From Campylobacter fetus subsp. fetus (GTDB lineage Bacteria > Campylobacterota > Campylobacteria > Campylobacterales > Campylobacteraceae): DNA of 64,000 nucleotides. The stretch lies in contig NZ_LS483431.1 in the NCBI RefSeq assembly GCF_900475935.1, forward strand, positions 496,001-560,000, read 5' to 3'. Of the stretch, positions 16,266-22,716 are shown piece after piece. The notes under the pieces are model-generated. The model worked only from the letters and a program-made list of their open reading frames with translations, did not search any database and was not told the origin of the DNA. Each line of letters starts with the position of its first letter. Positions within the stretch are counted from its first letter, which is position 1. The translations under genes and the position numbers were made by a program.

Positions 16266-17330
16266 ATGGGAGTTTTGGATATTGTAAAAGCAGGCGTACT
16301 AAGTGGTGATGATATCACAAAACTCTACGCTTATGCCAAACAAGAAGGGTTCGCTATCCCAGCAGTAAATGTAGTAGGCAGCAATTCCGTAAATGCAGTG
16401 TTAGAAGCCGCAAAAAGAGCAAACTCACCTGTTATAATCCAATTTAGCAATGGCGGCGCCGGTTTTTTTGCCGGTAAGTCATGTCCTAAGCCAGATATTT
16501 TAGGCGCTATAGTAGGTGCTAAGCATGTTCATCTGCTTGCTAGAGAGTACGGCATTCCAGTAGTTTTGCATACAGATCATGCCGCTAGAAAGTTACTGCC
16601 ATGGATAGATGGTCTTATAGAGGCTAGTCGTGAACATAAAAAAGTATTCGGAAGACCGCTTTTTAGTTCTCATATGCTTGATCTCAGCGAAGAGAGCTTA
16701 GAGGAAAATATCTCTACTTGTAAAGAGTATTTAAAAAATTTAAGCGAACTTGATATAAGTCTTGAAATCGAGCTTGGAGTTACCGGAGGAGAAGAGGACG
16801 GTGTTGATAATTCTGGTGTAGATAACTCTCTTCTTTATACTCAACCATCAGAAGTTGCTTATGCTTATTCTGAGTTAGGCAAAATTAGCGATAAATTTAG
16901 TATAGCAGCTAGTTTTGGAAACGTACATGGAGTATATAAGCCGGGAAATGTTGTTCTTCGTCCGGAAATTCTTAAAAATTCACAAGAGTTTATTAAGCAC
17001 AAATTCTCTCTAAATGACGACAAGCCGGTAAATTTCGTTTTTCATGGCGGTAGTGGTAGTGAGTTAAAAGATATTAAAAACGCCGTAAGTTATGGTGTTG
17101 TTAAAATGAATATCGATACTGACACACAATGGGCTTTTTGGGATGGAGTGAGAGAGTACGAAGCGGCTCATCACGGATATCTGCAATCTCAGATCGGAAA
17201 TCCCGAGGGAGAAGACAAGCCAAATAAAAAATACTACGATCCTAGAAAATGGTTAAGATCTGGTGAAGAGAGTATGATAAAAAGACTTCTTGAAGCTTTT
17301 GATAATTTAAACTGTATGAATAAAAATTAG
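16266..17330 (+). CDS. fba: Fructose-bisphosphate aldolase, class II
   Basis: A 354-residue zinc-dependent aldolase that interconverts fructose 1,6-bisphosphate with dihydroxyacetone phosphate and glyceraldehyde 3-phosphate, here probably mainly for gluconeogenesis because campylobacters largely lack glycolytic use of glucose. Visible are the zinc-site region VVLHTDHAARKLL, the catalytic/metal segment LEIELGVTGGEEDG, GNVHGVY, and FHGGSGS, with the phosphate-binding NIDTDTQWAFW at the C-terminus. It lies 9 bases after peb4, probably co-transcribed, and is followed by a terminator. Confidence 0.96.
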   Translation: MGVLDIVKAGVLSGDDITKLYAYAKQEGFAIPAVNVVGSNSVNAVLEAAKRANSPVIIQFSNGGAGFFAGKSCPKPDILGAIVGAKHVHLLAREYGIPVVLHTDHAARKLLPWIDGLIEASREHKKVFGRPLFSSHMLDLSEESLEENISTCKEYLKNLSELDISLEIELGVTGGEEDGVDNSGVDNSLLYTQPSEVAYAYSELGKISDKFSIAASFGNVHGVYKPGNVVLRPEILKNSQEFIKHKFSLNDDKPVNFVFHGGSGSELKDIKNAVSYGVVKMNIDTDTQWAFWDGVREYEAAHHGYLQSQIGNPEGEDKPNKKYYDPRKWLRSGEESMIKRLLEAFDNLNCMNKN

Positions 17331-17333
17331 ATT

Positions 17334-17362
17334 TTGGCGGCTTGTATGCTGCCAAATTTATT
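17334..17362 (+). terminator. Intrinsic terminator after fba
   Basis: TTGGCGGC (17334-17341) and GCTGCCAA (17348-17355) form an 8-bp stem with one G-U pair and a 6-base loop, followed by ATTTATTTT. It closes the peb4-fba unit and separates it from the MotA-like gene. Confidence 0.75.
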
Positions 17363-17418: not shown

Positions 17419-18744
17419 ATGGATAAAAATGATGCGTTTAGTGATTTGCTTCTACCTGATAGCGGTAAGAGACAAAGTAAAGTAGTTTATTTTAAAATAG
17501 TTTTTCTGCCTGTTTTGATATACGCTATATTTCTGCTTGGGTATTTTCGTATTATAAATTTTAGCGTTGAGCTTCATACTATAGTTATGATGGGAGTTAT
17601 ACTTTTTATAGCGATGCTTTTTGCTAGACATAGTGCTGAGCTTGGATGTTGTTTATTTGAGCAGAGAAAAGATGAGTTTAAAAGAGATCTTAAAAGCTAT
17701 ATTATGAAAAGTCTTTTGATAATAGGAAAAGATCAAAAGTCAAACGGTAGTTTTGATGAGTTTGTAAAAAGATATTCAAATGACGTTAGAAATGATAATT
17801 ACGCCTCAGTTGGTGCTGGAATTTTTCCTATGCTTGGTATACTTGGTACGTTTTTAAGTATAGCTATATCTATGCCGAATTTTAGCTCATCAAGCACAGA
17901 AGCGCTTGAAACTGAGATTTCCACCCTTTTAAGCGGAGTTGGAACTGCATTTTATGTGTCGATATATGGTATTTTTTTGGCTCTTTGGTGGATATTTTTT
18001 GAGAGATTTGGTATGAGTAGATTTGAGAAGCTTATAGCTAGGCAAAAAAATGCTACAAGTACTTTTTTTTGGACAAAAGAGGAGATCGAGCAGAGATATA
18101 TGCAAGAAAGTCTCGGAAATTTCGAGAAGATTAGCGTAATTTTTGAGCATGTTAGCAAGCAGGAATTTTTTGAAGAGTTAAATAAAGCGGTTGAAAGAAA
18201 ATTCCAAAATTTTTCTGATATGCTTAAAGTAGAAGAAGACGCCGTAAAACTAAGCAGTGAACATATAAAGCATACTATGGGAATGCTTATCAAATCTCAG
18301 CGAGATCAAAAAGATATGGTAAAAGTACATGCTGAAATAATTAATGTGCTTAATTCGTTTAATCTAAATTTGAAAGAGATGCAACTAAGATTTAGTGAGC
18401 ATTACACAAGATTGCAAAGTGCTAGTGATGATAAAATAACTAAACTTGAGAGATCCGTAAATGATCTTGGTGGAAATATCTCTAAATTTGAAAATTCGCT
18501 TGAGGGTTTTAGCGTTGAAATTTTAGAGAAACAAAAACAAGCCTTAGAAGGATTTAGAGCTGCTATGATAGATGGTATGCAAGCTTTTAGAGAGGTTTTT
18601 GATGATGAGGGAGCAAAAGGGGATGAGAGCAGCAAAATCATAGAAGAGCTAAAAAAGAGCATTCAAGAGATAGATGATGAGACTAACAGCGCACTAGAAA
18701 AACTAGAAGTAAATACAGAAGCAAATCAAGATGAAATTAGATAA
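17419..18744 (+). CDS. MotA/TolQ/ExbB-type channel protein with long cytoplasmic coiled coil (ZorA-like)
   Basis: A 441-residue membrane protein. Hydrophobic segments lie at about residues 24-44, 50-70, 130-155 and 170-195. The last two carry the proton-channel pattern (GIFPMLGILGTFLSI, then LLSGVGTAFYVSIYGIFLALWW). The remaining 240 residues are charged, predicted cytoplasmic coiled coil. This layout, and the partner with an OmpA-like domain just downstream, matches the ion-driven stators MotAB and, more closely in tail length, ZorAB of Zorya defence. In C. jejuni the orthologous locus (after peb4-fba) is annotated only as membrane protein. The function is not established. It overlaps the next gene by 14 bases. 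Confidence 0.8.
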   Translation: MDKNDAFSDLLLPDSGKRQSKVVYFKIVFLPVLIYAIFLLGYFRIINFSVELHTIVMMGVILFIAMLFARHSAELGCCLFEQRKDEFKRDLKSYIMKSLLIIGKDQKSNGSFDEFVKRYSNDVRNDNYASVGAGIFPMLGILGTFLSIAISMPNFSSSSTEALETEISTLLSGVGTAFYVSIYGIFLALWWIFFERFGMSRFEKLIARQKNATSTFFWTKEEIEQRYMQESLGNFEKISVIFEHVSKQEFFEELNKAVERKFQNFSDMLKVEEDAVKLSSEHIKHTMGMLIKSQRDQKDMVKVHAEIINVLNSFNLNLKEMQLRFSEHYTRLQSASDDKITKLERSVNDLGGNISKFENSLEGFSVEILEKQKQALEGFRAAMIDGMQAFREVFDDEGAKGDESSKIIEELKKSIQEIDDETNSALEKLEVNTEANQDEIR

Positions 18745-19735
18745 TTCAAGAGACGAAAGAAGTAATTTCTGGATATCTTACGCCGATTTGATGGCTGGAC
18801 TTTTGTTTGTTTTTGTGCTGCTCATCGGAGCTATCGTAGTAAAATACGTACTCACACAAGCAGATTTAAATGCTTTAAGAATAGATCTAAATAAAAAAGT
18901 AGAAGCACTTGCTTTTAGTAGTGATGAGTTGAACAAAAAAGAAAAAGCGATAAAAGATTTCATAGAAAAATTACAAAATGCTAAAGATCGCAATTTAGCT
19001 TTATCTGAGATAAATGCACTATTTAATGAGAAACTTGCCGAATTAAGTATTCAGCTTGGAGATATAAATAGTACTCTTAGAGTGGTAAATGAGGAAAATA
19101 AAGAGTTAAGCTCCATTATAAATTTAAAAGATGAACAAATCAGTGATTTAAAAATTGCTTTAACTCAAAAAGAATCCGAATATAACAGTGTTTTGGCTGA
19201 TCTAAATAGTACAAAAGAACGCATAAAAGATTTAGGTGGTATAAAATTAAAAGTGATATCGGATCTAAAGCAAAAACTTGGTAATTCCATACGTATCGAT
19301 GCAAATTCAGGCTCAGTTTCGCTTCCGTCATCTATTTTGTTTGATACAAACTCATTTATGTTAAAAGATAGCGCTAGATTTGATTTGAGACGTACTTTAA
19401 AGGCGTATTTCGATGTGCTTCTAAGCGATGAGATACGACCGAACATTGATAGAATAGTTATAGAAGGTCATACCGATAGCGATGGCAGTTATCTTTATAA
19501 TCTTGAATTATCGCAAAAAAGAGCTTATGAGGTAATGAAATTTATCTACTCATTTTACAAAAATGAAGAACTAGGTAAATACCTTATAGCAAGCGGTAGA
19601 AGTTTTAGCGATCTTGTTTATAAAAACGGAGTTGAGGATAAAGAAGCATCTCGCAGAATTGAGATTAAATTTAGCATCTCGGATAAAGCCACTATAAAAG
19701 AGATAGAAAAAATTCTCAATCAAAATGCAAGGTAA
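18731..19735 (+). CDS. OmpA-domain membrane protein, MotB/ZorB-like partner
   Basis: A 334-residue protein with one N-terminal membrane segment (about residues 16-40). It is preceded by the motif WISYADLMAGLLFVF, whose Asp19 is at the position of the proton-carrying aspartate of MotB/ZorB. A periplasmic coiled coil follows (about 45-175), then an OmpA-like peptidoglycan-binding domain (about 185-325: LFDTNSF, IVIEGHTDSDG, NLELSQKRAYEV, ASRRIEI). A channel protein plus a wall-binding protein is the plan of an ion-driven stator. It overlaps both neighbours (14 and 11 bases). Confidence 0.85.
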   Translation: MKLDNSRDERSNFWISYADLMAGLLFVFVLLIGAIVVKYVLTQADLNALRIDLNKKVEALAFSSDELNKKEKAIKDFIEKLQNAKDRNLALSEINALFNEKLAELSIQLGDINSTLRVVNEENKELSSIINLKDEQISDLKIALTQKESEYNSVLADLNSTKERIKDLGGIKLKVISDLKQKLGNSIRIDANSGSVSLPSSILFDTNSFMLKDSARFDLRRTLKAYFDVLLSDEIRPNIDRIVIEGHTDSDGSYLYNLELSQKRAYEVMKFIYSFYKNEELGKYLIASGRSFSDLVYKNGVEDKEASRRIEIKFSISDKATIKEIEKILNQNAR

Positions 19736-20597
19736 TTTTGATAATTTTGAATGCGTAAATTTTCGTGGTCGTAGTTTTTGGATTTTAAGAGATGACAAAA
19801 TCGGAGGCGAATTTAATGGAAATAAAGCAAGAAAGCTTGAGTATTTTTTAAATTCGGATTTAAGCGGTTTTAAACGCATTATATCTTATGGCTCAAATCA
19901 GTCAAATGCAATGTACAGCCTTAGCGTGTTTGCAAAGATGAAAGAACTAGAGTTTATCTATGTAACCGATCATTTAAGCGGATTTTTAAAAGAGCGTCCG
20001 AGCGGAAATTTGGCTTTGGCTTTGCGAAATGGCATGGTGATTTATGAAAGTAAAAATAGAGCTGATTTCGCTTCAAATTTAAAAAATATCGACGATATTT
20101 TAATTCCTGAGGGTGTGGCTATGAGCGAAGCCGAGTATGGGTTTAAAACTCAAGCTAAGCTTATAGAGGATTTTTCTAATCAAATCGGATTTAAATTTGA
20201 TATATTTTTGCCTAGTGGCACTGGTGCTAGTGCGGCGTATTTAGCTAAAAATTTAAGCCAAATGAAAGTATATACTACGCCTTGCGTGGGCGATAGAGAT
20301 TATCTTGCTTCTATGGTTTTAAATTTAGATAAAGATTCAAAATTGAATATTTTAAATCCGCCAAAAAAATATCATTTTGGGAATTTAAAGCGTGAGCTTT
20401 TTGATATTTATAAAGAGCTTAAAGACTCAACAAATGTTGAGTTTGAGCTGCTTTACGATAGTGTTGGATGGCTTAGTTTACTCTATAATTTAACTGAATT
20501 TAAAAATAAAATTTTATATATTCATCAAGGTGGAATTATAGGAAATGAAAGTCTTTTGGAGCGTTACAAACGTAAATTTAAACTAGATATGGTATAA
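19725..20597 (+). CDS. PLP-dependent 1-aminocyclopropane-1-carboxylate deaminase/D-cysteine desulfhydrase family protein
   Basis: A 290-residue fold-type II PLP enzyme. The family start (FWILRDDKIGGEFNGNKARKLEY) contains the PLP lysine in GNKARKL, and SYGSNQSNAMYSLS the substrate-binding loop. FLPSGTGASAAYL binds phosphate. It is shorter than typical ACC deaminases (about 330) and is missing parts of the middle domain. ACC deamination is unlikely in this organism; D-cysteine or another small amino acid is more plausible, but the substrate cannot be read from sequence. It overlaps the OmpA-domain gene by 11 bases, as at the matching C. jejuni locus. Confidence 0.75.
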   Translation: MQGNFDNFECVNFRGRSFWILRDDKIGGEFNGNKARKLEYFLNSDLSGFKRIISYGSNQSNAMYSLSVFAKMKELEFIYVTDHLSGFLKERPSGNLALALRNGMVIYESKNRADFASNLKNIDDILIPEGVAMSEAEYGFKTQAKLIEDFSNQIGFKFDIFLPSGTGASAAYLAKNLSQMKVYTTPCVGDRDYLASMVLNLDKDSKLNILNPPKKYHFGNLKRELFDIYKELKDSTNVEFELLYDSVGWLSLLYNLTEFKNKILYIHQGGIIGNESLLERYKRKFKLDMV

Positions 20598-21963: not shown

Positions 21964-22716
21964 ATGAAAATAGGTGATTATACAAATAGTAACCAAAATT
22001 ACTATTTAGATAGTGCTCAAAAAAATGCAAGTAAAGCACTTGAAAATATATCTGCTCAAAGAGCATTAAGCGGTACCGATAGTTCAAATTTGCTTATAGC
22101 AGACTCTTTGCGTAGCAGTGCAAGTTCGATTTCGCAAGGTGTAAATAATGCAAATGACGCCATTGGAGTACTTCAGATAGCTGATGCTACTTTGCAAAAT
22201 TTAGGCAAAGGGGCAGATAGACTAAATGAGCTTTCTGTTAGAGCAAATAGTGCAATAAACGGACCAGAGCAAATTAGTGCTTTAAATAAAGAAGCAAATG
22301 CTCTAAAAACATCTATGCAAGACTCTTTAAACTCTGCCAGCTTTAATGGTAAAAATATTTTTGGTAATTCGCTTAGTTTCCAAACAGGAAACGGAGAAGT
22401 CGGCATAAACTTAACAGCTCCAAATGTTAATTCTTTGGACATATCTAATCAAAATACTATAAGTGACTTTTTAAAGAGCGTAAATTCGCTTAGAACTGAT
22501 ATCGGAAGTTTACAAAATGGTCTTATAAGCGGAATAAATGCTAGTTTAACCGCGGTTACTTCAACGAAAGCTAGCGAATCTCAATTGCAAAATAACGACC
22601 TAGCAAATAATGTGACTAACTACAACAATGCGAATTTGTTGGTAAACAGCTCAACTATGGCAGCTGCACACAATATGCAAACACTTCAACGTCAAGTATC
22701 TGGACTTTTAGGATAG
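21964..22716 (+). CDS. flaC: Flagellin-like secreted protein FlaC
   Basis: A 250-residue protein with the two flagellin terminal coiled-coil regions (N: SAQKNASKALENISAQRALSGTDSS...; C: ANLLVNSSTMAAAHNMQTLQRQVSGLLG) but no large central domain. Its length matches C. jejuni FlaC, which is secreted through the flagellar apparatus and not built into the filament as a major subunit. The start has an excellent RBS (AAAGGAGG). A weak sigma-28-like sequence (TTGATGT near 21928) may precede it. It is followed by a clear terminator. The C. jejuni neighbours of flaC (DUF4149, prmC, M48) are found elsewhere in this window. Confidence 0.9.
   Translation: MKIGDYTNSNQNYYLDSAQKNASKALENISAQRALSGTDSSNLLIADSLRSSASSISQGVNNANDAIGVLQIADATLQNLGKGADRLNELSVRANSAINGPEQISALNKEANALKTSMQDSLNSASFNGKNIFGNSLSFQTGNGEVGINLTAPNVNSLDISNQNTISDFLKSVNSLRTDIGSLQNGLISGINASLTAVTSTKASESQLQNNDLANNVTNYNNANLLVNSSTMAAAHNMQTLQRQVSGLLG

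Follow-up and report, generated by a model that had tools for sequence, protein, structure and literature searches.

We report that two adjacent genes of Campylobacter fetus subsp. fetus, here called A and B, most likely encode a ZorAB-like, ion-driven and wall-anchored envelope machine without Zorya effectors, a reading to which we assign a probability of roughly 0.55 and for which we infer the 5:2 assembly, the identity of the ion, the rotation and the function from comparative analysis. The genes were studied in a 64,000-nucleotide stretch (the window; contig NZ_LS483431.1, positions 496,001 to 560,000). This uncharacterised, motor-like complex is near-universal in Campylobacteraceae, a family that includes human and animal pathogens. 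Two observations are new here: 1) the length of the rod of B follows a heptad rule, and 2) the membrane Asp of B and a channel Ser of A are lost jointly in one Campylobacter sub-clade. The features of the locus, in window coordinates, are as follows.

17333..17356, + strand: terminator-like hairpin between fba and A (consensus match only)
17419..18744, + strand: A subunit, 441 aa, ZorA-like MotA/TolQ/ExbB channel with a cytoplasmic helical tail
17848..17850, + strand: A Thr144 codon; ring residue of the channel that never varies among members with an ion site
17959..17961, + strand: A Ser181 codon, channel ring residue, gone whenever B Asp19 is gone
18067..18741, + strand: A cytoplasmic helical tail, about residues 217-441 (AF2 model)
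18731..19735, + strand: B subunit, 334 aa, ZorB-like, with one membrane helix, a long rod and an OmpA domain
18785..18787, + strand: B Asp19 codon, putative ion carrier
18848..19234, + strand: B periplasmic coiled-coil rod, about residues 40-168, with heptad-step length changes among relatives
19316..19678, + strand: B OmpA-like peptidoglycan-binding domain, about residues 196-316, with His247, Leu260, Arg264, Arg308 and Lys313
19725..20597, + strand: PLP-dependent enzyme of the ACC deaminase / D-cysteine desulfhydrase group, 290 aa, not judged part of the machine

A and B overlap by 14 nt, and B overlaps the PLP open reading frame by 11 nt. Upstream of A lie peb4 (15447) and fba (16266, ending at 17330), and hisD (20621) follows the PLP gene. 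Downstream of hisD, positions 21964-22716 encode a short flagellin-like protein (250 aa, named by eye) with relatives in the same position in several related genera.

Domain searches matched A to MotA_ExbB (PF01618, 33.7 bits against a cut-off of 22.9) and B to OmpA (PF00691, 41 bits against 27.2), and the membrane motif of B, FWISYADLMAGLLF, includes Asp19. In the AF2 models, which are monomers (mean pLDDT 77 for A and 83 for B; pTM 0.49 each), the membrane helices of A are followed by a helical tail of about 220 residues (helices 220-246, 248-397 and 404-435), and B is a single predicted helix over residues 11-168 followed by the OmpA domain. These results confirm the description in the initial annotation of a tailed MotA/ExbB channel and an overlapping, Asp-bearing OmpA partner, to which they add the long helical rod that B has between membrane and OmpA domain.

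We examined the residues expected of an ion-driven motor in 145 distinct pairs, and Thr144, Thr176 and Ser181 of A occurred together with Asp19 of B in 133 of them; the pair thus has the Asp in the B helix and the Ser/Thr ring in A that mark a 5:2 motor. At the other end of B, we transferred by alignment the positions of the ZorB residues required for peptidoglycan binding (PMC11890865), and they are kept at His247 in 44/49, Leu260 in 49/49, Arg264 in 48/49, Arg308 in 43/49 and Lys313 in 48/49 sequences.

Between these two ends, the distance from the Trp of the membrane motif to the start of the OmpA domain ranges about twofold, from 137 to 309 residues, among 149 distinct B proteins. Modulo seven, this length leaves a remainder of 1 in 117 proteins, 5 in 20, 4 in 11 and 0 in a single one; remainders of 2, 3 and 6 are absent. 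Since relatives are not independent, length changes were counted by parsimony, using a tree from which the rod had been left out. Exact multiples of seven account for 43 of the 58 changes, 14 are off by 3 or 4, and one is off by 1 (binomial P = 1.4e-24 for an expectation of 1/7, a value that is approximate because the tree was quick and parsimony chooses one history). Offsets of three or four residues are what coiled-coil stutters would give. The tail of A at the same loci, a fair if imperfect control because its C terminus is free, showed multiples of seven in only 6 of 70 length changes. In the main rod class, the fraction of V/I/L/M/F reaches 0.82 and 0.41 at two heptad phases and lies at 0.10-0.22 elsewhere. 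These heptad length steps and the hydrophobic heptad pattern identify the rod as one uninterrupted coiled coil of conserved register. The length rule suggests a stiff shaft linking motor and cell wall, although it does not prove torque. At a helix rise of about 0.15 nm per residue in coiled coils, the rod in the window (about 130 residues) would span about 19 nm and the longest rod about 42 nm, which is beyond the usual periplasm, so the longest rods may tilt or run along the wall. Rods near 300 residues, about 40 nm if straight, occur at L082:8134-9609, L170:4504-5952 and L174:4542-5951. A comparable length rule has been described for phytochrome-regulated diguanylate cyclases, in which linker lengths vary by multiples of seven and the coiled coil integrates the signal (PMC9587094); those linkers likewise differ by sevens or by -4 between dimeric modules, but they are much shorter and belong to unrelated cytoplasmic signalling proteins, and the likeness is an analogy only.

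Zorya-like anatomy without effectors and with a long shaft suggests an ion-driven, wall-anchored envelope machine. For Zorya itself, the proposed mechanism is that ion flow turns ZorA, tail included, against peptidoglycan-bound ZorB, and defence needs the B Asp, peptidoglycan binding and the A tail (PMC11890865). In the Campylobacter pair, the membrane helices of a B dimer would most likely sit inside a ring of five A subunits, and the ions crossing at Asp19 of B against Thr144 and Ser181 of A would probably be protons, as one may guess from the residues of the channel. On the periplasmic side, the B dimer would form a two-stranded coiled coil with OmpA domains at its end, which would grip peptidoglycan. 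Ion flow would then turn the A pentamer and its cytoplasmic tail relative to the wall-fixed B shaft or, in the alternative direction, displacement of the wall may be read out via the shaft; the shaft would have to hold register from the motor to the wall domain. Such a machine would most likely serve the mechanics or the sensing of envelope or peptidoglycan in Campylobacterota rather than the killing of phage. Two sets of genomes count against the proposal: eight keep the pair with a dead ion site, and others, namely the closed genome G124 and genus g10, live without it.

The ion-dead pairs all come from the genus of the window. Asp19 is replaced by Gly in 8 of the 145 pairs, and in all eight Ser181 is replaced as well, by Cys or Ala; among the 137 Asp-bearing pairs, Ser181 is missing in only one. 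Both genes are intact in each of these eight (L006, L007, L009, L010, L011, L012, L013 and L014), and their genomes carry FliG. The ion site was probably lost in a single event, with decay later, since the A tree unites the three ion-dead members included in it on one branch (98/89). In L013 and L014 the OmpA domain is also degenerate and the peptidoglycan motif is lost, with the genes retained. Pairwise dN/dS among ion-dead pairs was 0.03-0.12, except for 0.23 for B of L013/L014, and among ion-site-bearing pairs it was 0.02-0.11. Both genes of the ion-dead sub-clade are under purifying selection, so there, at least, the complex acts without the motor. Together, the heptad rule and this natural loss of the ion site make torque transmission by the rod testable. 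A tentative extension, to which we give clearly less credence than to the envelope machine as such, is a non-defence drive-shaft motor of the ZorAB branch, in which ion-driven rotation in the membrane would act through or against a rigid periplasmic coiled coil whose register to the wall-binding domains is kept by selection across widely differing lengths; one Campylobacter sub-clade would have made of it an ion-dead complex that it still needs, and Zorya would be the weaponised relative of an envelope machine.

The retention of ion-dead pairs also speaks for a structural tether, in which a fixed-register rod would link the inner membrane to peptidoglycan and ion flow would be secondary; the sub-clade that lacks both ion-site residues keeps its genes at mostly low dN/dS, as a tether would allow. 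However, a tether has no need of ion-site residues, which are otherwise almost invariant in A and B, and L013 and L014 retain the genes after losing the motif of the peptidoglycan domain as well. We regard a tether as unlikely, and somewhat less plausible than the drive shaft.

Returning to the envelope machine, its closest known relatives are the ZorAB pairs of Zorya, as shown by sequence search, fold search and the A tree. PADLOC matched A to ZorA (1.2e-15) and B to ZorB (6.5e-57), whereas the curated NCBIfam cut-offs for ZorA and ZorB were widely missed (35.1 bits against 700 for A, 77 bits against 400 for B). A genuine Zorya II at L075 served as positive control and scored 1.8e-118 for ZorA, 2.9e-77 for ZorB and 1e-27 for ZorE in PADLOC; this ZorA-ZorB-ZorE locus (L075:1432-4675) sits on a short contig from g10, which belongs to Campylobacteraceae but is not the genus of the window. 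The top PDB sequence matches of the pair are the ZorA and ZorB chains of 8qyd/8qyh and 8vvi/8vvn, the latter two entries, 8vvn and 8vvi, being the type I and type II ZorAB of Shewanella and Sulfuricurvum kujiense (PMC11890865). The structural search proposed by the initial annotation was run in Foldseek with the monomer AlphaFold models, and the best matches were again ZorA chains for A and ZorB chains for B.

Phylogenetic analysis of A (166 columns) split the family together with Zorya from MotA/TolQ/ExbB with a support of 92/90, and the Zorya rows formed one group (89/99) on a long branch. In the B tree, the family as one clade was not rejected (p-AU 0.45). Both trees have long branches and modest support, and the root between the family and Zorya is not placed. 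A tree with the pair inside MotAB or TolQR, which the initial annotation had named as its refutation, was not obtained, and its placement of the pair nearer to ZorAB than to MotAB, TolQR or ExbBD stands. Within the A tree, families f16 (L080, L081) and f20 (L077, L044) each fall in two places, which suggests transfer or an old duplication inside the phylum.

The pair shares with ZorAB of Zorya I and II (8qyd, 8vvn, 8vvi) the Thr/Ser ring of the channel, the B Asp, the OmpA domain with peptidoglycan-binding residues and the long cytoplasmic A tail. In contrast to them, the Campylobacter pair lacks ZorC, ZorD and ZorE, scores below the curated cut-offs and occupies an inherited core locus. The two also differ in the stretch from membrane to OmpA domain, which is 33 residues in B of the local Zorya II (L075) and 123-291 in the family of the pair.

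We mapped the gene neighbourhood at 92 related loci in nine families of Campylobacterota. ZorA-type and ZorB-type genes are adjacent as in Zorya, with A directly 5' of B at 89 of the 92 loci, and A-B is the sole unit common to them, with no other gene kept. A reference search found none of ZorC, ZorD and ZorE within seven genes of the pair at these loci, and across the whole genome neither the ZorE model nor a ZorC query (the latter run without a positive control) gave a match, in agreement with the effector-free pair that had been proposed. A was detected in 15 of 16 genomes of the window's genus, in 127 of the 134 good Campylobacteraceae genomes, and in f6, f7, f9, f16, f20 and other families of the phylum; matches in f13 were weak (about 1e-8) and were left out of this distribution. 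The order nth-peb4-fba-A-B-PLP, often followed by hisD, recurs in most sampled genera of Campylobacteraceae, in support of the adjacency to peb4-fba noted earlier. The distribution is thus that of a fixed, near-universal locus, not the patchy, mobile or defence-island distribution of Zorya.

Searching 72,556 plasmids returned no match covering 80% of A or B. A Paracoccus yeei plasmid (L128:3506-5564) encodes a hypothetical protein and, after it, a protein of the OmpA family that lacks an Asp-bearing membrane motif. When one genome per species was scanned for the B-motif pattern (84,980 species), only three contigs, all from Campylobacterota, matched; the pattern is GC-biased and strict, which makes this a weak test outside the phylum, and a restriction of the pair to Campylobacterota is for that reason only likely. 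The effector, cut-off and distribution tests all speak against a Zorya system: A and B are ordinary inherited chromosomal genes that probably work like a ZorAB motor but do not belong to Zorya.

These data also weigh on the possibility of a stand-alone anti-phage sensor, which would sense perturbation of the envelope by phage and either recruit unlinked nucleases or act alone. In its favour, the closest relatives are defence proteins, of which ZorAB is the sensing part (PMC11890865). We nevertheless consider it improbable, more so than the tether, and the phage-sensing role raised by the initial annotation is not upheld: the pair is effector-free, holds one locus amid housekeeping genes across nearly the whole family and is not patchy, has no plasmid match over most of A or B, and is retained in ion-dead form, whereas Zorya requires the B Asp (PMC11890865).

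A flagellar role was judged by a survey of FliG. The pair is present without FliG in G173 and G188, and FliG is present without the pair in G124, G163 and G166, which rules out a flagellar accessory role. Genus g10 is without the pair, its sole weak A match (G024) being its Zorya II, and five tested genomes of the genus are without FliG. The pair resembles MotAB as an ion-driven A/B membrane pair with an OmpA-type peptidoglycan anchor on B, and it shares the MotA/TolQ/ExbB channel family with TolQR and ExbBD. In contrast to MotAB, it shows neither a MotB plug (MotB_plug scored 17.4 bits, under the 24-bit cut-off) nor a flagellar link; in contrast to TolQR and ExbBD, its B carries an OmpA domain in place of a TolR/ExbD domain, and A falls outside the TolQ/ExbB group. 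In the whole genome (1.76 Mb, one contig) A is single-copy, and the five further MotA/ExbB-family proteins look like MotA, TolQ and three ExbB, judged by size and neighbours. A divergent flagellar stator or Tol/Ton energiser, suggested by the channel family and the MotB-like OmpA domain, is accordingly very improbable, given the FliG survey, the separate A branch, the sub-threshold plug and a genome that already encodes its own MotA, TolQ and ExbB.

Regarding the PLP enzyme, the coupling to the pair that the initial annotation proposed was not borne out. The operon peb4-fba-PLP-hisD stands without AB in f20 (L214, L216), f18 (L217) and f7 (L222); in the f6 genome G402, fba-PLP-hisD is intact and AB lies on a separate contig; and in the closed genome G124 of genus g4 (L213:6500-9813), fba is directly followed by PLP and hisD, and no A was found. 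These AB-free operons in f7, f18, f20 and G124 rule out the enzyme as a partner of AB. It occurs in 21 of 29 other genomes tested, part of them without AB. Most economically, the pair would have arrived between fba and PLP in the Campylobacteraceae lineage and been lost from G124, which thus offers a natural deletion of AB. The PLP reading frame has a GNKARKLE stretch with an invariant core; by comparison with ACC deaminase, we presume that this stretch holds the PLP lysine.

By synteny, we take Cj0598/Cj0599 to be this pair in C. jejuni. In the open-access literature searched, no functional study of Cj0598/Cj0599 was found, and cj0598 is listed as 'function unknown' (PMC5841378). The pair indicates ZorAB-like motors outside phage defence, which bears on the origin of Zorya, and profile models may give false Zorya calls on such pairs. 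With the PADLOC model PDLC00609 (ZorB1), B reaches 6.5e-57 although it is not part of a Zorya system, and defence finders that rely on profiles may therefore report orphan ZorB in Campylobacter.
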